From Lineolata rhizophorae (lineage: Eukaryota > Ascomycota > Dothideomycetes > Lineolatales > Lineolataceae), in NCBI GenBank assembly GCA_010093515.1, contig MU001674.1:606246-670245 (forward strand): a stretch of 64,000 nt of DNA, written 5' to 3'. Shown here in pieces: positions 12,181-55,615 of the stretch (the stretch's first letter is position 1; each line of letters begins with the position of its first letter). The notes under the pieces are model-generated. The model had not been told where the DNA came from. It was given only the letters and a program-made list of their open reading frames with translations, and made no database searches. The position numbers were made by a program, and so were the translations under genes.

Positions 12181-15100
12181 GCAAAGTTGGGGGACGGGCT
12201 GGCGGAAAGGTCTAGGATGCTGGGTGGGAAATAGCTAAGTAGGCTATGCGGGCAACAGGTTATGGGTTCGGCGTTGGTGTTGCTTGGGACTATAACTATT
12301 TAGTGCCGGGGGGGACGCTTGGCGTCTTCTAGGTAACGGATGGCGAAGGGCTTTCGGATGAGAGGTAGGATATCCGGGCTTTCTTGGCCCAGGACAAGAA
12401 TGCTAAAATAAAGGACGGTACAGAGCCCTGCACCTTTTTCTCTTGTTATTTTCCGTTCTCAAAACCTCGTTCTTCGGCATAAACGTCCCATCTATCATGT
12501 CATGCGTGGGTTTTCTAGCGTCATTGTCACCAGGTGGTCATGTCTGGTTGTTTTTGTTTTTTTCCCTTTCAAAAATATATCCCCCCCTTTTCATTTTCTC
12601 GTTTTGCATGCGCCATGGGTTTTTTTTGGTTTGGGGCGACAGTTCTTTCGCGTGGAAATTGTAGCATGCTCTAGGCTTTGTTCACTTGGTTGAGTTCTTT
12701 TAGGACGGAACGGTTTGGTGACGGGAGGAGCGGGACTGGTAGACTTGGCCTATTTCCGGCATGGTTGTATGGACTTTTTTGCATGTGTGTGTGTGTGTGT
12801 GTGTGTGTGTGGCTTGGGTTTTTTTTTTGTTGTTGCGTCCATATTGGACCTGGATTTTTTGCCCGCCTACGTGGTGCAAACCACGCTTTTTGATACCAAT
12901 TGCACACTTCTTTTGCGTTCGTGCCCGTTGTCCGATACTCCTGGCACTGGTTCGTGGCGTACGGGAAATGCCGAGTGCTCGGCCGGACCTCAGCGGTGGC
13001 ACACGTACGGCTGCCACGCCCCCGAGTCGGGCCTTGCTCGCGGCACCCTTTTTTTCCCTGGACGCCCGCTGCCGCGCCGTGCCCTAGCTACGCATATACA
13101 TACTCCCTACGTAGTATGTACCCGTCCTCGAACCCCCATGCCCCCCCCCCCCGGGGCCAAAAAAGACCGCCACGATCCCTTCTCCCTCGCCGCGTCCCGC
13201 CCCGCGCGGCCGTCTCCACCGCCGCACGCCGCGCCCCTCGCGAGCAGCCGCCGGCCCGAGCCGCGCCTTCCTCCCCCCTCTGCGCGTCGTTGTCGGGGGA
13301 CGGCCTTTCCGTGGGCTGGTTGGTTGGCTGGTTGGTTGGTCCCGGGCCCCAGGACCCGATCTGAGGCCCTTGTGGAGCGGGCGAGGTGGGGTCTGTCGCG
13401 CTCGTTTGGCATTGGGGGGGTGGAGGGTGGAGATGGGATGGGGTGGGGAGTTGTTGGTCGGGGTGGAGGGCAAATAGGCAAAATGGGGCGGGGGGTGCGG
13501 TACTCCTTTTTTTTTTTTTCTTCCTCACCTCTTTTTTGTGAATATGTTTGTTGACTGCTGGAGTGGTAGGGCAAGCACTCTTTGTATATGGAAGGGTGGC
13601 GGGGCAAATTGAGGCGTGTGTGGGCGTAGTAGTAAGATGTAGGTGTGCATGTCTTGTCTATGTGCGTATATGCGCATGGGGGGTGCCTTGCTTGTTGTGA
13701 TCAAGGGCGTTGCGGAGATTACTTGGCCTCTCTTAAACTTGACCGGCAGTCAGAGGAACAAACCAAGTTTTGTTACGTTGGTCGGCGGCGCCCCTTTCCC
13801 CCGCACCGGTGGAGGGTGAGAAGTTGGTCTGTTCACTTCTTTTCTTTCTTCTGAACAGAGCAAATATCGATTCCGCACGCGCGATCAAACATTCGCCAGA
13901 CGAGTATCTTCCTAGCACCTATCTACCCCTCCACTCAAGAAGGTTAGCAGCTCCATTGTAACCTGCCCTCTACTCAGACCACATCATTTCTTCCCCTCCT
14001 ACCCCCTCCCCCCCCCAGCAGCACAAGCACCATACCCGCTCCTAGCTCCTCACTTACCTCACCCCGCCTAACTTCTTCCAAGCTTCACCACTACGCACCT
14101 GAAAATCCGCGCCAGTCCCGCGCACTACCAACGGCCCGTATCAGCGAACGACGAACGCCGCCCCCGGAGGGACTACCAGGCCCTCCCCCCTCCTTTCTCT
14201 AGCACCAAATCATGGACAAACCCTACAGCAAGCCACTCGCCGCCGCCGAGGCCACGTGGGCCCCGCCCAACGCCCACCGCACGTACATACGTATGTCCTC
14301 CGTACCGCCGCGGCGTCTGCCCACGCATGTCCTACGTACGCACGCGCCGCCGAGACAAACAGAAAGGGGCCCGGTCCGCACTGGACGCGTGTGGCACGCA
14401 GCGTGGCGCGCGGGGCGCGCAAGGCGCGCAAGAGGCCCTCCCCGGCAAAGAGGCGCGTTCGGGATCGACGCGTGCGTACACACGGGCGCAGCGCGTCAAC
14501 GTGGCGCGGTACATGCATGGCGCCTGAAGGTGCGGGGGCGAAGGGGGGATTATTTGGCGTGCGACGCAAGGGGCGGAGAGCGGCGGGCCGGCATGGCAAA
14601 CGGGATCGAGGTCGGTCAGGTTGAGAGGAGAGACCGTTCAGACCGCTTTGCCTGCGCGTAAGCGCTGCTGGATGGGTCCCCTGCACCCCTGCACATGCGC
14701 ATGCACATATCGTAGCATATCCGGTGGGAAGGCTGGTAGGTAGGGTTGGCAGAAACAAGCCTAGAACAATGGCTACCTTTGTACTACCTCTATATATCTC
14801 TCTGCATATCTCCGTAGATGCACGTGTGTATGTGAACCAGTCAGCCTCTTAGGGGGCTGCCTCAACCTAACCCATGTATCCTATTCCCGTCCCGCTTCTA
14901 TCTGACGGCTACAACCATATAACCTTAAAGAAAATCAAATAAAGAAAAGGGAGGTGCACGAAAGTCACACAGCTACAACGGCGGCAACAACGCGCAGAAA
15001 AAAGGTTCAGAAAAGGCGTCCAACCTGAAAACGGTATCCAACAGAGTCTTCGTTGTGCAAAACCGTTTCAAAACGTCTTCGCATCGGATGTTCGTTGTTG

Positions 15101-45243: not shown

Positions 45244-48200
45244 CTATGCCGGATACCCCGAGTACCCATGCGGGGCCTGTTGCTGCTGCTGATGTTGTTG
45301 CTGCTGCTGCACATACCCACTACCGCCACCACCCTGCCCAAACTGCTCCGGCCCCATCTGCAGCCCAGCCTGCTCGAAATCGACCCCAGCAAACCCCAGC
45401 CCATCCGCCTGCAACCCTCCCGCTCCGCCCGCCCCGTTGGCCCCCAAGTAGGACTCGAAGTCGTCGTTGAACGAGGCCGTGTCGACGGGCGACGAGTACA
45501 TCAGCGACTGGCCGTACGACGCCACGGGCGTGATCTGCGGCCGATAGCGGCTCGCGGCGGCGCCGGGCGATTGGTAGCCGTTGACGCCGTTGGCGAGGTT
45601 GCGTTGCTTTGGGGGCACCTTGGGCGGCATGCTCGTCGGCGGGTAGGACTGGATGTAGGCCGATTGGGGAGCGGCAGTGAAATTAAAGGCGGAAGACGGA
45701 GGCTGCGAATGCTGCTGCTGCTGCTGCTGCTGCTGTTGTTGTTGTTGCTGCGATGGCTGCGCGCGCACGTTGAATTGGAGTGGAGGATAAGTGTGCATAG
45801 CTGCCGACGACACGGCAGACGACGGGAGAGAGCTCGAGAATCCAACGGAAAAGCCGGTGTCTAGTGGCTGTAGGCTCGAGCCTCCGTTGTACTGGCTTGG
45901 GTTGTTTGCTGGATAGGCGCTAAAGTTCGCCTGGGACCTCGCGGGCGACAGCGACGGCGCGTGACTGTGCGGCTCGACCGGGCTGATAACACTATCGGCA
46001 TGCAGATTCTTCTGCTCGACAAGAGGTAAAATAGGCATGCTGATTTGCTCCATGTGCTTGGCGAGGTGGACGGTCAGCTTCTTCCAGCTGTTGCAGATGT
46101 TGCCGCAAAAGCGGCACGGTTCGTCCTTCGGTTGCTTTATCGTGTCATTCCGGCAAGCGTCGACAAGGTCCCACACTTGCTCGGAGTGATCTTGGCCCCC
46201 CCAGTTTTGGTTGTCCCCAGCCTTATTGCTCGCTCGGCCGGTCCGGGCTCGAGGCTCGGGAACCTTGTGCTCCCTAACGAGATGCTGGACAAAGTTATCC
46301 TTGCGGAAGCATTGATGCTGGCAGTCGTTGATGTTGCAGGTCCAGCTTTCCAGCTGTCTATGCCTCTCATTCTCGTGTCGGACCCAGTCGGCCTTGCGCT
46401 TGAATGACTTTGGCTCGCTGCAGTTGGGGAACGTGCAAGTGAAAGGTTGGACGTCCTCATGCACGTGCTTAGTCCAATCCGAGGGCTTGAAGAACTTCTT
46501 GACCTTGAAACAGAGGGGGCACTCGAATTCGGCAGGCAGTCGCTTGACCGGAGGAATCGGAACACCAGGCGGGAACTGAGCGGGCACCATCGTACCTTCC
46601 TTTAAGTCCTCTTGGCCATCATCAGAAGCCCCTGAGGAAATGACTTGGAAGCCCATGAATGGGACGTCGCCGTCTTTGTTGCTGGCACGAGGCGGAAGGG
46701 ACTTTGACTCGCCACCCAGAGCAAAGCAAAACTTGCCCGACGGACAGTTCTTGTTCCGGACGTGGTTGAGATGCTTGACCTTGCACTCCTGGAGTCGCTT
46801 GAAGCGACGGATTTGCTCCTGCGCGACGCGTTCTACCATGTACTCGACAAGACGGGGGTTCAACTCGATCGCATGCGACTTGAACCCCTCAGGAGTCGGA
46901 ATAATTGGTATTGTACGAACTTGAAGGTCCATTGTAACAGCATCCACTGGTGAAGCATCTTCGTCGTCTTCGTCGTCAAAGGCACGACTCTTCTTCGGAG
47001 GCACAGGGGGTGGCAGACCGTGATCTGCATCGGCGCTTGGCGTTGCCAGAGTCGGTAAGGGCGGACCACCATGCTGAGTCATAAGCTCTGCAAGACCAGG
47101 TGATCTGCCCAAATCACTGCGGCTACGGCTCCGGCGGATAACATTTTTCGCCTGGGCCCAAGGGCCGGCAGACGTAGTTGCTCCGGCAGCGCTAGTCGGT
47201 GTCACATCCTTGGATGAGGGTGGAACATTAGTGTTGAGCTTTGGTGACTTCGGGCGTCCCCAGCTACCAATGCGTTTCGGACCGGATGGTTGGCTTGGTA
47301 TTGCCGGCTCTGGCGGGTGTGGGCTCGGTGACGATTGTCCGCCCTTCCTCTTGAGGTTATTGCTGTTGGTACGCTTAAAGCCGAATTGGTTGAAAAAGCT
47401 GTTGCGCCGGTCCCGCCTTTCTTTTGGCTCATTCTTATCGGCAATATCGGGTAGAGGCTTTGTCACCCCGCCGACTTGAGACAGACTGGCCAAGTCTGTT
47501 TCGCTCAAACGGCGTGATCCAATGGTCGCCGCCAGTGATGCGCTTTCAATATCGCGAGCCCTCTGGTGGAATCGCATCATTGCCGCGCTAGAAGTGGGAG
47601 GTTGGTACCTTGAGTCAGTCGGTTCTTGCTTGACTGGCGGGTCGATCCATGGCTTGGTGGCAGTCTGCGAGTTCTCATCCGCTTGTGGCGCCTGTGTGAG
47701 TTGTGCAGTGTCATCGGTGTTAGATTCAGCTACATCGATAGGAGCGGGATCTTCATCGTCCGAGTAATCGTATTCACCCAAATCGCTTTGCTCGTCAATA
47801 AGGGCGCCCGGACCTGGGAGGCCCGAATCATCAGGCAGGCCTAGGCCCACAGTACTTCGAAGAGCGGCGTCGTTAGCGCTCTTTGCTCGTGGTCGGCCCG
47901 AAGTCGACCTCCTGTTGCCGACTATGGTAGACGAGCCATCGGTACCGGCGTCGCTTCCAACGTCGTTCTTGGTGAGCCACTCTTGTACCTCGGCATTCTT
48001 CTCGGCGATTTGTCGCTTTTCCTCCGCTTCTTTGAGCGAAGGGACTTCGACTTCCTTGATCTCGTCTCGATCTGCAGGGCCAAGTCCGGCCTGGCCGGAG
48101 GTCTGATTGACTTTCCACGATCCGTCTTCATTTCGATTCGCTGCCAGTGGGTTGGGACAATAGCTGACTTGGACATGAGTCGAAGCATTATCGGACTCAT

Positions 48201-49209
48201 CGTCAGATTCTTCGTCCATCGGGTAGGGCGACAAGTGCGTGCCAGACATGTCGTGATTCCGCTGGTGCGCGGCATTATCGCCATCCCTTGAAGAGGAATC
48301 GCCGACACTGAGGTCGTCAACTCGGACGATGGGGCTCATCAAATGAGCGGGCAGTTGCTGGGCGGCACCGTTTGAGGCGTCAGAATGGCTGCGGGAGCGA
48401 GCAGGGCTTTGCTGCTGGCTGACGGTGGTGTTGAGGTGATGTGGTCTTTCATGGGAATGCTGGTGCATCGACAGCCCGGGGATGTGTGCTTGGGCAAACT
48501 GTGTATTGTGGGGTCTGAAGGCAAGGTGTGACTCGTCATGCTGGCCAGGGCTCGACGAGTTTGTCAGGCTCGGAGAAAGCAGCTGATTAGTCGGTCGGCC
48601 TCCCATCAAGGCCGTGTGCGCGGCCATGGCTCCTGTCGAGAGGCTGGCCGGAATTGCCGTCGACGTCAGATTGAAGGAGTCGTCCAGGGGCCCGGTCTGG
48701 TTGTCGCCGAGATGAAGCAGCGGGCCGAACTGGTCGTTTATAAAACTCTCGTCGAGGGCCGGTGTGGTATAGGTGCTGAGGTCGGCGTGCCCTTGCTCCG
48801 ACAGATAGCCCTCGGAGCTGAGCTGGTCATTGGAGGCGCCCGACGGCGAAAGGTTGTTATAACCAAGGTTCTGAGCCGAGGACCCGGCGGGATCTGGCTG
48901 CTGGAGATAGTCATGCGGCATCGAGCGATACTGCTGGAAGTCGACGCCGGCGGGGCCTGCGATAAAGGAAGAGGGGTCCGGAGCAGAGGTGTCGGCTTGT
49001 AAATTACTTGAAGACGCGGAGTGGCTCAGCCCATTTGCGGCCAGGTAGCTAGCGCCAGTGGCTGGGTCCGCCGAGAAGGGGAAGGAAAAAGCCGAGAAGC
49101 CATGTTGGGCGAAATCGCCTTCGGCAGCCTGGGCAGACATGAAGGCGCCGAGGTCACCGTTGGAATTGCGCCGCGGCCGCTCTTGGCCGGGGCGCTCCAC
49201 GGCAGACAT
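45244..49209 (-). CDS. Large C2H2 zinc-finger protein with poly-Gln tracts
   Basis: Uninterrupted frame of 1,321 residues, probably a transcription regulator. The N-terminal two thirds are low in complexity (Ser/Gln/Asp/Pro-rich, with acidic patches near 340-420 and 480-500). A basic patch with RRNSFFNQFGFKR occurs at about 610, and KNVIRRSRSRSDLG near 690 could help nuclear entry. Fingers sit at about 890-1065: CPLCFKVKKFF, FTCTFPNC, WTCNINDCQHQC and CRFCGNICNSW, the last followed by HLAKHMEQISMPILPL, a tail common in Pezizomycotina C2H2 proteins. The C-terminus has a Q13 tract (45712-45750) and further Gln/His runs before GYSGYPA. MSAVERPGQERPRRNS is the first Met of the frame. No intron is needed. 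Function cannot be named. Confidence 0.85.
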   Translation of the reverse strand: MSAVERPGQERPRRNSNGDLGAFMSAQAAEGDFAQHGFSAFSFPFSADPATGASYLAANGLSHSASSSNLQADTSAPDPSSFIAGPAGVDFQQYRSMPHDYLQQPDPAGSSAQNLGYNNLSPSGASNDQLSSEGYLSEQGHADLSTYTTPALDESFINDQFGPLLHLGDNQTGPLDDSFNLTSTAIPASLSTGAMAAHTALMGGRPTNQLLSPSLTNSSSPGQHDESHLAFRPHNTQFAQAHIPGLSMHQHSHERPHHLNTTVSQQQSPARSRSHSDASNGAAQQLPAHLMSPIVRVDDLSVGDSSSRDGDNAAHQRNHDMSGTHLSPYPMDEESDDESDNASTHVQVSYCPNPLAANRNEDGSWKVNQTSGQAGLGPADRDEIKEVEVPSLKEAEEKRQIAEKNAEVQEWLTKNDVGSDAGTDGSSTIVGNRRSTSGRPRAKSANDAALRSTVGLGLPDDSGLPGPGALIDEQSDLGEYDYSDDEDPAPIDVAESNTDDTAQLTQAPQADENSQTATKPWIDPPVKQEPTDSRYQPPTSSAAMMRFHQRARDIESASLAATIGSRRLSETDLASLSQVGGVTKPLPDIADKNEPKERRDRRNSFFNQFGFKRTNSNNLKRKGGQSSPSPHPPEPAIPSQPSGPKRIGSWGRPKSPKLNTNVPPSSKDVTPTSAAGATTSAGPWAQAKNVIRRSRSRSDLGRSPGLAELMTQHGGPPLPTLATPSADADHGLPPPVPPKKSRAFDDEDDEDASPVDAVTMDLQVRTIPIIPTPEGFKSHAIELNPRLVEYMVERVAQEQIRRFKRLQECKVKHLNHVRNKNCPSGKFCFALGGESKSLPPRASNKDGDVPFMGFQVISSGASDDGQEDLKEGTMVPAQFPPGVPIPPVKRLPAEFECPLCFKVKKFFKPSDWTKHVHEDVQPFTCTFPNCSEPKSFKRKADWVRHENERHRQLESWTCNINDCQHQCFRKDNFVQHLVREHKVPEPRARTGRASNKAGDNQNWGGQDHSEQVWDLVDACRNDTIKQPKDEPCRFCGNICNSWKKLTVHLAKHMEQISMPILPLVEQKNLHADSVISPVEPHSHAPSLSPARSQANFSAYPANNPSQYNGGSSLQPLDTGFSVGFSSSLPSSAVSSAAMHTYPPLQFNVRAQPSQQQQQQQQQQQQQHSQPPSSAFNFTAAPQSAYIQSYPPTSMPPKVPPKQRNLANGVNGYQSPGAAASRYRPQITPVASYGQSLMYSSPVDTASFNDDFESYLGANGAGGAGGLQADGLGFAGVDFEQAGLQMGPEQFGQGGGGSGYVQQQQQHQQQQQAPHGYSGYPA
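45712..45750 (-). repeat. Poly-glutamine (CAG/CAA)13 tract
   Basis: Thirteen consecutive Gln codons, mixed CAG and CAA, near the C-terminus of the large C2H2 protein. Pure CAG at one end makes it prone to slippage; CAA interruptions are at the other. Confidence 0.95.
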
Positions 49210-51807
49210 GGCGACTAAGCGGAGCGACGACGACGAGCCAGAACCGTGGCTTCAGATGACGGGTTGGGGGAGCGACGGTCGGCGCGGCGCGGCCTGGCCT
49301 GCACTGTGCAGAGCAGCGTCCCGGAGAGCCAGTCAGGGTGACGTTGGGAGTCGCGGCCAGGCGGCCATTCGGTCGTTGCCGTCGCGAGCAGTGAGTGGGT
49401 CGTGTGCGTCGCGAGCGCGGGCGAGGGGATCGCTTGGACGGTCTCTGCGGCGGCGGGATCGAGGTCGCGCAAGCAGGAGGAGAGCGGCCGACGGGGCAGG
49501 ATCGGCGAGAATGACAAGGCGCGGCCACGAGCGAAAAGCCCGTCGTCTCGTCTCGGGCAGGTTCCGGGAAAAGCGTTCGGGAGAGGTGAAGAGGGAGGAC
49601 GGTAGCGGGGCTGAGCGCGGCGGAGCCACAGAGCCTACGGAGCCCTCGAATCAGAGCCCGTCGCGCGAGGGACAGGGCCACCGCAGCGGCCGGGGCGTGT
49701 GGGCGTCCGCGTTCGTACCGCGCGCGGCAGGGCTCCCTCGAGGCTCTGTCGCGCCCGTACCTTGCTGGCAGGACGAACCCGCCGCCGCCGCGGGCTTGCA
49801 GTCAGCCTGCAGTTTCGCGGGCCCTAGTCCCCAAGCAAACCCGCCCCGGGCAGAGATGGCACGCTCGTCTGGCACGCTCGTCTGGCACGCTCGTCTGGCA
49901 CGCTCGTCTGGCACGCTACTCGGCCCGCGAGGCAGATTCGCAGCCCTCGCGCCCGGCCTCGTCCGCGAGCCACCCAACGTCGCCGAAGCGTCCGGCGCGG
50001 TAGAGCCATGGCTCCCTATCCCGGCGGCTGCTCCCGCCCGCCGGCGCCATTGGTTCGCGTCCACTTTCCGCGCCATGGATGCGGTCGATCCGGAGGCCGC
50101 CTTGACCTACGACTTCCATTCGCCGCTGCCTGCGCCTGTCGCCGACTCCGCCCACCTTCGACGTCGCATAGCCCGACCGTCGCTCGCAAATTGACCTCTT
50201 TGGCTGCCGGCTCGCCGCGTCGGATTCGGTGCCGATGCGCGCAGCTAGGCGAAGCAATTCGTTCCCGGTCCTGGTCAACAATCCGCATTGCCTCATCCTT
50301 TGGATCAAACATGCGACTTCAGTCTGTTTTCCTGTTCTTTCGGCGTCCACGTCCGCGCCGGAGTACCTGCGCATGCTCGCTAGCGTCGCGGCGGCCATGC
50401 ATAAACAGCGCGCCCTTCCTCTTCGGTCGCCAGAAGAGTTCTAGAAGTCTGCCTTGAAGCACGCGACTCCGGAGACGGTTCGCGTGGGGCACGGAGAACC
50501 GCGTAGAATAGCCGTTTCGAAGCGCCTCTACGGAATAACCACCCAGCAGACGACCCACAGCCCAGTGGGCTTCGCCGGTTAGATGCTCTCGGCACTTGGA
50601 ACGTCAAATGTCGTCCCCATACCAAGTGTCCTCGTCGCGAAGTCGGTTGTGATGAATGTCGGGTCGAACAGGCGCCAAGAAAACGGCCGGCCGACTCAAC
50701 GTGAGCCGCGCCTCCCAGACGCCCGGATGTCGACAGACTTTGTGATGCAGCAGAAGTCTGCGGCTTAAAGCCTATTCTAATGCTCCATACAAAGTGTGGC
50801 TGACGTTTCAGGCGGCATGAGTGGCGGTGCCGACGAAACACGCCAAGAATCTAACAACGAGCATCAAGACAACGCCTCTCGTTTCACCCGACTCAATTCT
50901 CGAACAAAACATCCCTGGCGCAAGAGGTGGATACCAGTAGTTTTGTTCCAATGACCGAGCTAGAATTAGGGTGGAATTATTCCGTAATGCGCCGCGTCGA
51001 CTTGCCTTTGTGCCATAGCGAGCTTCCTGGGTTTCCCCACATAGGTACACAGATTGTTGGGTTCTATTAAAAGACATCCCCGTTCTATATGTACACCAAA
51101 AGTCTTCGCAATTCAAATTCAATAACCAGTGTTATTGCACCGCACGAACAGTAAGAGCAACCTTCTCTACTGATATGCACCTCGTATAATATTTAATTCG
51201 CCCCGAACTAATAGGGTAGATCACTTGACCTGGGAGTTCTCACGTGGCGAGCTCAGTTGCTAGCGAGGCTACTACTCTCACTTGAGGCAAAGAATAGTAA
51301 CAAAAGTGGTGCATGTCTAGCCTGTTAAAAATATAGAGGTCCGGTGTGTGTGCCTGCCCGCTGCTTTTTCATTCCGTAACATAAGAAAAGGGAAAAAGAT
51401 TAGAACCCAACGGATAGGAGGGCAGTCTAAGCTATGGGATCTACCAAATCCCCATAAGCCCTTTGTGTCTCTATTTTGTGTTCTCAAGCAACATACAACC
51501 GGGAGTTCGGCACGCACTACTAAGGCCGCTAGGAAATGAAAGGGGCAAGAAAAGAAAAGGAAAAAATGGAAATTTATCGTGCCGATATTCAGCACTGCTA
51601 AACCCAACCGAAGCATGCTCTATAAGTTGCAACGCTGGGCAAGCGCAGTGGGGGAAAGAAAGAAAACCCAATAGACATGAAAATGGATGTGTGAAAACTG
51701 AGGCTGCAACTTCCTCGTTTTTTATTCATTGAAAGAGGTGCCAAGCTAATGCAGAATCCTTCTATCCGTCTGACGAGGCACCGTCAATCGTGTAACTTTT
51801 TGAGACT
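49210..51807. promoter_or_regulatory. Upstream region of the large C2H2 gene, then gene-poor DNA
   Basis: GC-rich to about 50500, with the tandem 13-bp array at 49858-49917, then shifting to AT-richer sequence. Open frames on both strands in the GC-rich part are Arg/Ala/Pro-rich artefacts. A short plus-strand frame near 50816 (45 codons) has no motif. The right end holds the 3' flank of the small secreted protein gene. No other gene is supported. Confidence 0.4.
49858..49917 (+). repeat. Tandem array, 4.6 copies of a 13-bp unit
   Basis: Four perfect copies of GGCACGCTCGTCT in a row plus a partial fifth (GGCACGCT), 650 bp upstream of the C2H2 start codon. The units are identical, so the array is recent or under constraint. 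A protein-binding role is possible but not shown. Confidence 0.95.
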
Positions 51808-52198
51808 CTAACAATCCGGAAGACAATCGACGCACTTGCCGAAGACCAATGTCAGCTCGACACTTAGCATTTTGCAGCGAGACAACTAAGACCCTACTTA
51901 CGTTCTTTCGATAGACGCAGACTTCGTGCTGACAGATGACAATAAATGCCCGGTTCCCAGGGTAACGCTGCGATATTAGTTAGACGTGTGAGTATGAAAT
52001 GTCTCAAGAGATAGTTCTTTATCATACGGCCAAGCAGGCATCATAGCGCTTAAGACAGGAGCCGCAGATATCATTCTCCGAACTTGTGGCCATGTCGAGA
52101 TCTGGAGAGAGTGAAGAAGTCTCAGCCGCGGCGGTGCCCGCGATCGCAGAGCCCGCCCATGCCAGAAATGCAAGGCTAGAGTAAAAGAAACCCTTCAT
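51808..52198 (-). CDS. Small secreted cysteine-rich protein (87 aa)
   Basis: Predicted secreted protein with eight cysteines; I recognise no family. Three minus-strand exons: 52198-52028, 51967-51902 and 51834-51808. Intron 1 is 60 nt (GTATGA...ATCGCAG) with a near-ideal branch site CTAACTAAT; intron 2 is 67 nt (GTAAGT...GGCAAG) with branch GCTGAC. Both fall between codons. Residues 1-20 (MKGFFYSSLAFLAWAGSAIA) make a clear signal peptide. After an Ala/Ser/Thr-rich linker, all eight Cys lie in residues 45-87: C45, C48, C55, C69, C74, C80, C83 and C87, the last being the final residue. Without splicing the first exon stops at once, so the gene is nearly invisible as an open frame. Size and Cys pattern are those of fungal effector-like or antimicrobial proteins; that role is inference. 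The gene sits alone in a gene-poor region. Confidence 0.7.
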
Positions 52199-54214
52199 AG
52201 TCGGTAAAGGGCCTGAACTGTAAGGTCTAATAAATTTGCCTTTTGGTGGGGGTATAAATGCGAAGGTGAGTCAACATAGAGGGAGATGGCGTCCATCGAG
52301 CGGTTTTGTATTGCTCATAGGTATGATTGCTTAACTAGCAAATATCGAATTCACTCTGCATTTCACCTTCCTCCGAGGCCGCACAGTCCAAAAGCTAGTC
52401 GTATGTAAAGGCTCTAAAGCTCATCAAGAAGCGAACCTATAAGAGTGGGAATACCAAACTTGCTTAGGGCCCATGACTCAAGCAAAGCCGCAAGTAAATG
52501 GTATACGTGAATGTCGATAGCATACAGAACTCCATCGGTTACTACTCACTTGGCAGCATCGACCTATGACCTATCTCATCCCTCCTCATGCATGGCCAAG
52601 CCTAATGCTCAGCATATGGTACAGGAAAGCATAGTACAGAGCTAGAGAAATGTGCCTCCAAAATGTGTTGGAAAAAAAAAGATGTGCGTATGGCCCTAGC
52701 AGGATTCGAACCAGTGCACTTCAGAATCACATCCCCAGCCTGCTTTACCTCCTTTCCAGCAGTTTTCTGCCTCAACATAATCAAAAGAAGAAAAAAATGA
52801 CAAAAAAACGAACCCATTGGGGAGCAAATGACTCTTTTAAGACCTCTCGGCCCCCTCCGATCAGCGACGTGACCCAAGGGTTGGTTTTTTGCCTTTTAAT
52901 CACCCGTTGTCCCCGAAAAGTCCGAAGACCAAACGCTAACCAACTACGCCACAAGGGCATAGCGGAAAGGACTGGGTTAGAAGACAACTACCACAACATA
53001 ATATATATATTTTAAGCCGTAGAAGTTTAAAACAAATATCCAAGTTTACCAAGGCAACGTAAACTAGGAGCGCCTTGCTGTCGCAAGATGGCCGGGTTTC
53101 GCTGCAAAGGACAATTCTGAAGCGCACAGCTTCGTCAAGCGCGTGCGAGCACACGCCTCTGTACGGGGAAATTGGCCCCCATTCACAGTCTCCGGTCTTG
53201 CACACTCGACCAAAGTGTCCACCCTAGGAGGCTTCAGAGAATGTATTCTACCGGGCACTGCCTAAATAAAGGAATATGACTTTGGCCAAATGTTGTGGTA
53301 TGGCCCCCCAACGTGCCGCAATACTTTCGGCGCGTGGGTGTCTCTTTACTAGAGCAGCACACAATGTAGACGAAGCAGCTTATCTTCAGATAAGAAAGAA
53401 AAATATCCACGAATGTAAATGAGCGAATACTCGAGATATCTACATCACTCGAGAGCTACGCCTATATTCCCAGCCTTTTCTTGCGCTCGGCAGGAGAACT
53501 GCTACAGCTAGGATACGCAACAAAACTACGCGGGATATTGATTGAGTTGGGTCCTAGAAACATATGACTAGCTAGTACGAAAAGCTAGGGACATAACAGC
53601 GACCAGCGGTGGAGGAACAAGAGAGTGTAATGTGTTCGTAGAGGCCATGGGAGAAACTTGAGAGCACGACGAGATGATGTGAGGTTCAGCGCAGGTTGGG
53701 GCTAGAAGGACGCGGGCCGACTGCTCCCGGAAAGCAGTAATCCGGCGCTAGGGCGAATAAGGGGATGATGTGAAGATCCCCGCTCGGATAGAAGGAAACT
53801 AGCAAATCTCCCGTCGCCCTTCCGCCGATGAGCTCAGCACTTGATGCGGTCCATGATGGCCTCGTGCCGCCCTCCAACAACACGAGGATATCGTCTCCTG
53901 CTTCGTCCTCCTCCTTCCCCTCATTTCTCGTTTTCTCAGCTTTCAACGTCGACGCCCCACGCCGCGCCTTGTCATGGAATTGTGGCTGCGGCACGAGCCC
54001 CTCTGACAGGCTGTTTCACATGTGACAACAGGCCACTCCGCACCAGTTTCCACCTTCCCCCCTCCTAGTTCCCGCTTGTGCATCCTCCATATCTTCATCT
54101 GCTTCGCTCAAGAAGTGCGTATACTGGGTAGTTGCCCATAGGATTAATAGGAAATCTGTCTTTCCGCTTTTGTGGTTTTAAATTAGGCTGTCTGCTACCG
54201 ACAAACCTTCCCGA
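52199..54214. other. AT-richer, gene-poor spacer
   Basis: Upstream of the small secreted protein gene, with a plus-strand-reading TATAAA near 52254 and the polymerase III-like unit at 52672-52958. From 53000 to 53650 nothing is recognisable. A 102-codon minus-strand frame (53686-53994) is open but shows no motif. The last 200 bp are the promoter side of the next gene. Confidence 0.4.
52672..52958 (-). ncRNA. RNA polymerase III-like unit with tRNA-like ends
   Basis: On the minus strand a tRNA-like 5' half starts at 52958 (GCCCTTG, then TGGCGTAGTTGG, which fits the A-box, and an anticodon-like loop CTTCGGA). A perfect B-box GGTTCGAATCC is at 52702-52712, followed by CTAGGGC and CCA. A run of nine T follows 18 nt later (52672-52680), as in polymerase III terminators. 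The halves are about 220 nt apart. The ends pair in 6 of 7 positions only if shifted by one base, and the T-stem has mismatches, so this is not a normal tRNA gene. Another T7 run lies inside. It could be a decayed tRNA, two remnants, or a tRNA-derived short interspersed element. Confidence 0.3.
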
Positions 54215-54274
54215 ATGCCACTCCCTATTTCCGCCTTCGAAACAAACTACACTTCTACATCAGAAGCAGGCGCC

Positions 54275-55615
54275 ATGGCCTCAGCAATCCCTCCGCCCTT
54301 TCCTCGCGATCTCCTTCAGCCGCTCCTTGCTTTCCTCCCAACATCGTTCGTCTCGACGCAGCCACCTCCCGAGCTTCTTCCTCACCTCACCCCGATATTG
54401 CGCCAGCGGGTGCAATACTCTTCGTTGGGTGGCTCTTCTGATTCATGGTTGACCAAGCTCAACTGGGATTCGCACCAGGCTTCCAAGCTGCCTGGTGCAA
54501 TTGAGTCCATCATGAGCTTGCTAGAGCCGCACCCGGTGTCGGGAGAGGTCGAAGCGCCTGAAGTTGAGCAAATGCGGTTCCGTCGGCTCGACCGCGAGAC
54601 ACTACATTCGCGTATGGATATGGTGGATCATGGCTTGGCGGCGATATTTCTGTGGTGTATGGGCGAAGGCGGCAAGCCTGGCGAAGGGTGGAAATTGGCT
54701 GAGCTGCGGTGTTTGGAAGACGCGGAGAATGGTGGGCCGTGGGCTACTAGCATGCCCGAAGCTGAAAAGGCGTACGCGAATGGGCTTGGTCCTGCAACGA
54801 ACGGGGCGACTATCAAGCATGCGGACATTGGCGTGGGTCAACATGCTGCCTCACATGCTGAGGATACCGCTGACTCCGATGACGATGACTACTGGAATTC
54901 TTACGATAGAACTCCGGGGCGAACGCCCGCACAGCGATCTCCTGCCCCGGGTAATCTTTCGTCTAACAGTGGGAATGGCCTTTGTGGGCCAGCTCCGGCA
55001 GCAGGCCTTCGAGATTCAGCGGCGGACGAGATGGACTACTATGCACAGTATGCGGAGGTTCAGCCTGCAATGGATGCTCACGATCCTGATGAGGCTAAAG
55101 CGGCCGATGGCCATGAATCGACCTTGGACGGTATGAGAATTCTAGAGGAGTTGCGACGTGCACGAGAGCAGGCCGAGCAACATCAACACCAAAATGGAGG
55201 AGCGCCGTCTTCCTTGTTGCAAGACGAACAACGAGAACAATCGCAGCCTGAGAATATCGAACACTCCACCGGAATCCCAGACCATCCGACCTGGAACTTC
55301 TCTATTAATCCTCCCGAGATCCCGACGTCCTTAGCGGGCGTGACCACATCTGCGCCCGCTCCAACCTCAATGCCAGCAAAAGTGGACATTCTCGAGCAGA
55401 CCGCTATTGGTATGCACCAAAACGAAGGTGAACGAAGAATCAATCAAGCCGAAGTCGGCGTGCGCCAACACATCAGCACAAGTATGAAGAGCATGTTCCG
55501 GCTAGCACGGGCCGCTGGAATTGATAGGGAGGAGTTTGACAACATGATCAAGGTGGAATTGGAGCTGTTGCCACTACTGGACAATTTGGATGGTGGAATT
55601 AATGGAGACGCGTAG
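54275..55615 (+). CDS. Conserved hypothetical protein, acidic middle
   Basis: Uninterrupted frame of 446 residues from MASAIPPPFPRDLL; an in-frame ATG 60 nt upstream (54215) would add 20 residues of poor quality, so the inner start is preferred. I recognise no domain. Residues 1-180 look folded: PPELLPHLTPILRQRVQYSS, a Leu-rich helix, and DRETLHSRMDMVDHGLAAIF, with several Trp. The middle (about 200-390) is acidic, Ser/Pro/Gln-rich and probably disordered, with DSDDDDYWNSYDRTPG. A coiled segment LEELRRAREQAEQHQHQ follows. The C-terminal 60 residues form helices (QHISTSMKSMFRLARAAGID, then EEFDNMIKVELELLPLLDNL). The two-ended pattern is typical of conserved fungal proteins of unknown role. No membrane segment or signal is visible. 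Confidence 0.75.
   Translation: MASAIPPPFPRDLLQPLLAFLPTSFVSTQPPPELLPHLTPILRQRVQYSSLGGSSDSWLTKLNWDSHQASKLPGAIESIMSLLEPHPVSGEVEAPEVEQMRFRRLDRETLHSRMDMVDHGLAAIFLWCMGEGGKPGEGWKLAELRCLEDAENGGPWATSMPEAEKAYANGLGPATNGATIKHADIGVGQHAASHAEDTADSDDDDYWNSYDRTPGRTPAQRSPAPGNLSSNSGNGLCGPAPAAGLRDSAADEMDYYAQYAEVQPAMDAHDPDEAKAADGHESTLDGMRILEELRRAREQAEQHQHQNGGAPSSLLQDEQREQSQPENIEHSTGIPDHPTWNFSINPPEIPTSLAGVTTSAPAPTSMPAKVDILEQTAIGMHQNEGERRINQAEVGVRQHISTSMKSMFRLARAAGIDREEFDNMIKVELELLPLLDNLDGGINGDA

Follow-up and report, generated by a model that had tools for sequence, protein, structure and literature searches.

Hydrophobins are small, secreted proteins with eight cysteines, typically including two adjacent (CC) pairs, and the hevein-type chitin-binding domain contains eight cysteines in about 43 residues, with an adjacent cysteine pair. 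PAF-type antifungal proteins are small, secreted, disulfide-bonded and cationic, with six cysteines, and the CS-alpha-beta defensins are small secreted disulfide proteins carrying CxxxC and CxC motifs; the CFEM domain also has a CxC motif, within a longer span. In the accessible part of one source, CFEM is described as a fungal, extracellular domain with eight cysteines, and small secreted cysteine-rich proteins (SSCPs) are defined by a mature length of no more than 300 residues, at least 4 cysteines, a cysteine content of at least 5% and secretion by a signal peptide (PMC4161775). Another group, the Y/F/WxC effector candidates, is characterised in the excerpt of its source by Y/F/W-x-C close to the N-terminus (PMC2886064).

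Here, a candidate gene for a protein of this general kind was analysed in a 64,000-nt stretch of contig MU001674.1 of Lineolata rhizophorae (the window). It likely represents a real three-exon gene, spliced as modelled, whose product is predicted to be exported.

Structure of the candidate gene

The whole model extended from nt 52198 to 51808 on the minus strand and comprised 87 codons followed by TAG, as read from the sequence and its translation. Exon 1 (nt 52028..52198; 57 codons) encoded the start, a predicted signal peptide, a Ser-rich linker and Cys 45, 48 and 55; exon 2 (nt 51902..51967; 22 codons) encoded Cys 69 and 74; and exon 3 (nt 51808..51834) consisted of eight sense codons (CVDCLPDC) and the TAG, contributing Cys 80, 83 and 87. 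Intron 1 (nt 51968..52027; 60 nt) had the signals GTATGA..CTAAC..CAG and intron 2 (nt 51835..51901; 67 nt) had GTAAGT..CTGAC..AAG, both in phase 0. The cysteines were thus spaced 2-6-13-4-5-2-3. Reading the sequence confirmed the coordinates, strand, length of 87 residues and two GT-AG introns in phase 0 given in the preliminary description, and translation bore out its count of eight cysteines in the last 43 residues, one being the final residue 87, and its last exon of only eight sense codons.

No stop or frame break was present in the exons. If intron 1 was retained, an in-frame TGA appeared as the second intron codon, and if intron 2 was retained, the frame stayed open for 51 more codons with one extra cysteine, giving 130 residues with six cysteines. 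In both introns the acceptor was the first AG past a CTRAC branch site.

The predicted signal peptide (residues 1-20, nt 52139..52198 of the minus strand) was assigned from hydropathy and a Lys at residue 2; its top 10-residue mean hydropathy was 1.67 under a home-made rule, the limit of which was either the candidate's own value or 1.5. As a guess, cleavage might follow Ala20 or Ala25. The mature protein as predicted was acidic (pI 4.75, charge about -3), and the cysteine domain alone was near neutral. A TATA-like TTTATA (nt 52253..52258), about 60 nt 5' of the start codon, and an AATAAA (nt 51721..51726), about 82 nt 3' of the stop codon, both on the minus strand, lay at fitting distances from the candidate as motif matches only.

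A repeated RNA-like element upstream

On the same strand, about 0.6 kb upstream of the candidate, a repeated RNA-like element was observed at nt 52690-53000 (minus strand), with copies at G000:C12:1003918-1004091 and C1:1535509-1535587, so that three genomic places were found for it in all, the window one included. It contained A-box-like TGGCGTAGTTGG and B-box-like GGTTCGAATCC about 230 bases apart. At lowered threshold only, ARAGORN reported a tRNA with a 177-nt intron in the element; with default settings it found no tRNA in the window. Neither of the two copies gave a tRNA. Conservation in the C12 copy was highest in the middle (117 of 125 bases), after which came a T run; a TATA-like stretch lay upstream. 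A search of Rfam assigned the element to no family, giving weak matches only, far below cut-off, and its fold was not unusually stable (z -0.55). One possibility is that the element is an RNA gene transcribed by Pol III whose B box lies past the terminator.

Rarity of the model in shuffled DNA

Both strands were scanned for models with a signal-peptide-like start, at most two introns with a branch site, a length of 50-130 residues and at least 8 cysteines within the last 50 or 60 residues, and the same scan was applied to shuffles of the window that kept dinucleotides within 2-kb blocks; these rules were written with the candidate already known. Under strict or loose splice rules the window held exactly one model, the candidate. 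Strict rules gave any such model in 1 of 200 shuffled windows, strict splice rules with the lower hydropathy limit in 0 of 100, and loose splice rules in 1 of 40; these counts are strong but are not clean probabilities because the rules postdate sight of the candidate. Under the loosest rules, which admitted any GT donor and no longer applied the Lys/Arg rule, models occurred in 7 of 40 shuffles (0.175 per shuffled window), and two were found in the real window, one of them of low complexity at nt 12497-12893.

A wider scan covered 253,901 readable bases, made up of the window and 20 further stretches. With at least 8 cysteines it yielded one strict model, the candidate, and one under loose splice rules; with at least 6 cysteines it yielded two models, both inside the window, versus 0.14 per shuffled window. 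The loosest rules likewise gave two models over all these bases, including the low-complexity one. The short last exon was evaluated separately by shuffling the DNA beyond the intron 2 donor: a tail of no more than 15 residues with at least 3 cysteines arose in 0 of 5000 strict shuffles and in 19 of 5000 loose ones.

Coding and splice signals

For the intergenic and long-ORF comparisons and the periodic model, the coding reference consisted of 48 ORFs kept from 64 without N, which are long open frames and not proven genes. Of 2000 simulations drawn from local composition, 3 equalled the synonymous codon choice of the candidate, as did 2 of 542 overlapping windows of intergenic DNA; among 256 long-ORF chunks the candidate's score fell at the 35th percentile. 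The score was 5.3 in frame and -0.2 in one wrong frame, against an intergenic 95% point of -2.0; since the wrong frame also exceeded that point, part of the signal is base composition. Overall, codon choice in the candidate is coding-like, with base composition contributing to the likeness. An order-4 periodic model gave -4.9 bits in frame and -9.6 to -39.0 bits in the remaining phases and on the reverse strand, and with -4.9 bits in frame it therefore provided no positive coding signal.

Strong splice and branch signals had been ascribed to the model. This held for the CTRAC sequences and the first-AG acceptors, but consensus introns were not enriched in the window (40, compared with 60.15 on average over 20 shuffles). 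Splice signals by themselves are therefore weak proof, and the AAG acceptor of intron 2 is the weakest splice signal of the model. Among introns with the strongest donors, AAG acceptors were used by 3 of 19 in 264 kb, the candidate's included, versus 3 of 7 in one shuffle. One intron of the window's dynamin gene, a gene named by Pfam, could be placed by reading frames (GTAAG..CTGAT..CAG), and its style matches that of the candidate introns.

Homology searches and genomic neighbourhood

Searches with the spliced 87-residue protein returned no described relative. Among 5.8 billion proteins, no candidate shared three 5-residue words with it, and a wider range of candidate lengths in the same set gave 15 candidates, none reaching E <= 10. 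Pfam-A yielded 0 families up to E 10, NCBIfam a single match (E 0.12) far under cut-off, and PDB four matches (best E 0.11) regarded as chance. At the sensitivity of these tools, the protein is therefore undescribed, as had been proposed, with respect to Pfam, NCBIfam, PDB and the 5.8-billion protein set. In its own genome, the protein search recovered the locus alone, with a single candidate scored each time, so that distant paralogs could escape, and the DNA search did not reveal another copy of the gene.

The neighbouring ORF at nt 54215-55615 (plus strand) matched the deposited Lineolata rhizophorae protein BDY21DRAFT_269519 in 390 of its 391 residues, the sole unmatched residue lying at a predicted junction. 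Among the best 120 of 1076 relatives of this protein, identity reached 52% over about 60% of the query, and the others were mostly 37-45% identical in alignments spanning the greater part of the query. In the taxonomy consulted, the order Lineolatales consists of one family with one genus. Missing homologs of the candidate are expected, because relatives of the neighbour are mostly at this level of identity and the candidate is short and fast-evolving; their absence from the searched sets says little on age or function, and does not establish a recent birth. Because the species is represented by at least one protein in the protein database and nothing candidate-like was found there, the gene is probably absent from the deposited annotation. 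BDY21DRAFT_269519 itself is marked partial, and its model omits a stretch of about 42 codons that reads through in frame within nt 54215-55615 (plus strand), either as a true intron or through a prediction error.

The description of the surroundings as gene-poor and AT-richer held locally. The GC content was 0.461 at nt 51001-53000 versus 0.567 for the whole window, and the nearest long ORFs taken as genes lay 2.6 kb (nt 45244-49209) and 2.0 kb (nt 54215-55615) away; mechanical ORFs of 150-378 codons were closer on the left side. The TpA/ApT ratio was 0.94 at nt 50900-53900, compared with 0.54-0.88 across the window's sixteen 4-kb bins and 0.69 and 0.73 in the two bins that overlap this region, and indicates mild mutation bias at most in this gene-poor DNA. 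RIP is marked by a characteristic pair of TpA/ApT and substrate index values; the substrate index here was 1.20, which does not form the RIP pair with 0.94, and a RIP relic was rejected.

Alternative explanations of the model

The rarity of such models in shuffles, the open exons, the GT-AG introns and the number of cysteines were all observed directly. An origin by chance in non-coding sequence, or as the remnant of a decayed gene, would agree with the lack of a relative in the protein sets, Pfam and own genome searched, with a coding potential near zero in the order-4 model and with the elevated TpA/ApT ratio as a hint of mutation pressure. It is nevertheless judged unlikely, as the counts in shuffled windows and the strict shuffles of exon 3, the coding-like synonymous choice and the exons free of stops and frame breaks stand against it.

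Quite unlikely as well is a real gene that is spliced otherwise, either with intron 2 retained or with another acceptor. The open frame through intron 2 and the weak AAG would allow this, and eight cysteines would also result from a GAG acceptor at 46 nt; however, the acceptor chosen is the first AG beyond the CTGAC branch site and leads to CxxCxxxC and a stop, a tail whose cysteine count did not arise in the strict shuffles, whereas the tail added by retention has one cysteine in 51 residues. A transposon copy was rejected, as no second copy of the gene was found in its own genome.

The three-exon gene spliced as modelled is accordingly the reading that we favour. A secreted eight-cysteine protein encoded in three small exons, as put forward in the preliminary description, remained the best reading of the sequence, its secretion being predicted only.

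Possible function of the product

Splicing of both introns would give the 87-residue protein, and the first 20 or so residues would act as a signal peptide for export. In the secretory pathway the eight cysteines would pair into four disulfides, so that some 43 residues would form a compact domain, preceded by a loose linker rich in Ser. Spacing alone would allow a layout in which a single helix presents Cys 45, 48 and 55 along the same side and is bridged to two other parts, a segment containing Cys 69 and 74 and a C-terminal loop containing Cys 80, 83 and 87.

Once exported, such a protein would work outside the hypha, with competing microbes as the first guess at its target. Lineolata rhizophorae is a saprobe of mangrove wood, and contact with competing microbes may for this reason be the likeliest use. 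A role in competition or defence outside the hypha is thus put forward tentatively, leaving the greater part of the weight with contact to a surface or host, or with the absence of any function. An antimicrobial role of the predicted protein is possible; the acidity of the predicted mature form makes a cationic, membrane-active peptide like PAF less likely. It appears unlikely that the domain represents both a new disulfide fold and a new family, in which a helix-led 43-residue unit with the 2-6-13-4-5-2-3 spacing and a C-terminal residue locked by a disulfide would serve as a secreted weapon or shield that arose, or was retained, in the Lineolata lineage alone.

An effector role, which had also been suggested, was left unsupported, since nothing in the analysis links the gene to a host and the fungus lives as a saprobe. 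Action on a living plant or animal host is accordingly considered improbable, although the gene sits in gene-poor DNA and the product is small, cysteine-rich, predicted to be secreted and found in a single species. The last four features are among the hallmarks of effector candidates given in the portion of PMC4759460 that was available, where expression in the host is a further mark. The same portion states that species-specific small secreted proteins were generally less numerous in saprotrophs than in plant pathogens, a point in favour of an effector, but also that effector-like proteins are reported from saprotrophic fungi (PMC4759460).

The locus suggests that an 87-codon, three-exon gene with an eight-codon last exon can stay unlisted in a deposited fungal genome, and the secreted proteins of such fungi may therefore be undercounted. 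If expressed, it would provide a compact disulfide domain from an order with a single listed family and genus. The candidate alone changes no general picture.

Comparison with known cysteine-rich proteins

Varied degrees of likeness were found between the candidate and the protein kinds introduced above. Like the SSCPs of fungi, it is predicted to be secreted, is well under 300 residues and contains eight cysteines, which make up 8 of its 87 residues; after either cleavage 62-67 residues would remain, with 8 cysteines (8/67 = 12%), in agreement with the length and cysteine limits in the accessible part of the SSCP definition (PMC4161775). It differs from SSCPs only in its sequence and cysteine spacing.

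The individual families were more distant. The candidate shares with the hevein-type domain eight cysteines in about 43 residues, but it has no CC pair, its spacing is x2, x6, x13, x4, x5, x2, x3, and 0 Pfam families matched it. CFEM proteins are likewise fungal with eight cysteines, whereas the candidate has no CxC, spans 43 residues and gave no Pfam match. Like the hydrophobins it is small, predicted to be secreted and has eight cysteines, but none are adjacent. With PAF-type proteins and CS-alpha-beta defensins it shares small size and predicted secretion and disulfides; compared with the PAF type, it has eight rather than six cysteines and an acidic rather than a cationic mature protein, and of the two motifs of CS-alpha-beta defensins, CxxxC is present and CxC absent. 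The motif of the Y/F/WxC effectors, as given in the excerpt of PMC2886064, is also lacking, the lone aromatic residue near a cysteine in exon 1 being in YDAC (Y-x-x-C, residues 52-55). The cysteine spacing agrees with no family in this comparison. The candidate is thus likely a small secreted cysteine-rich protein, ordinary in kind and new as a sequence.
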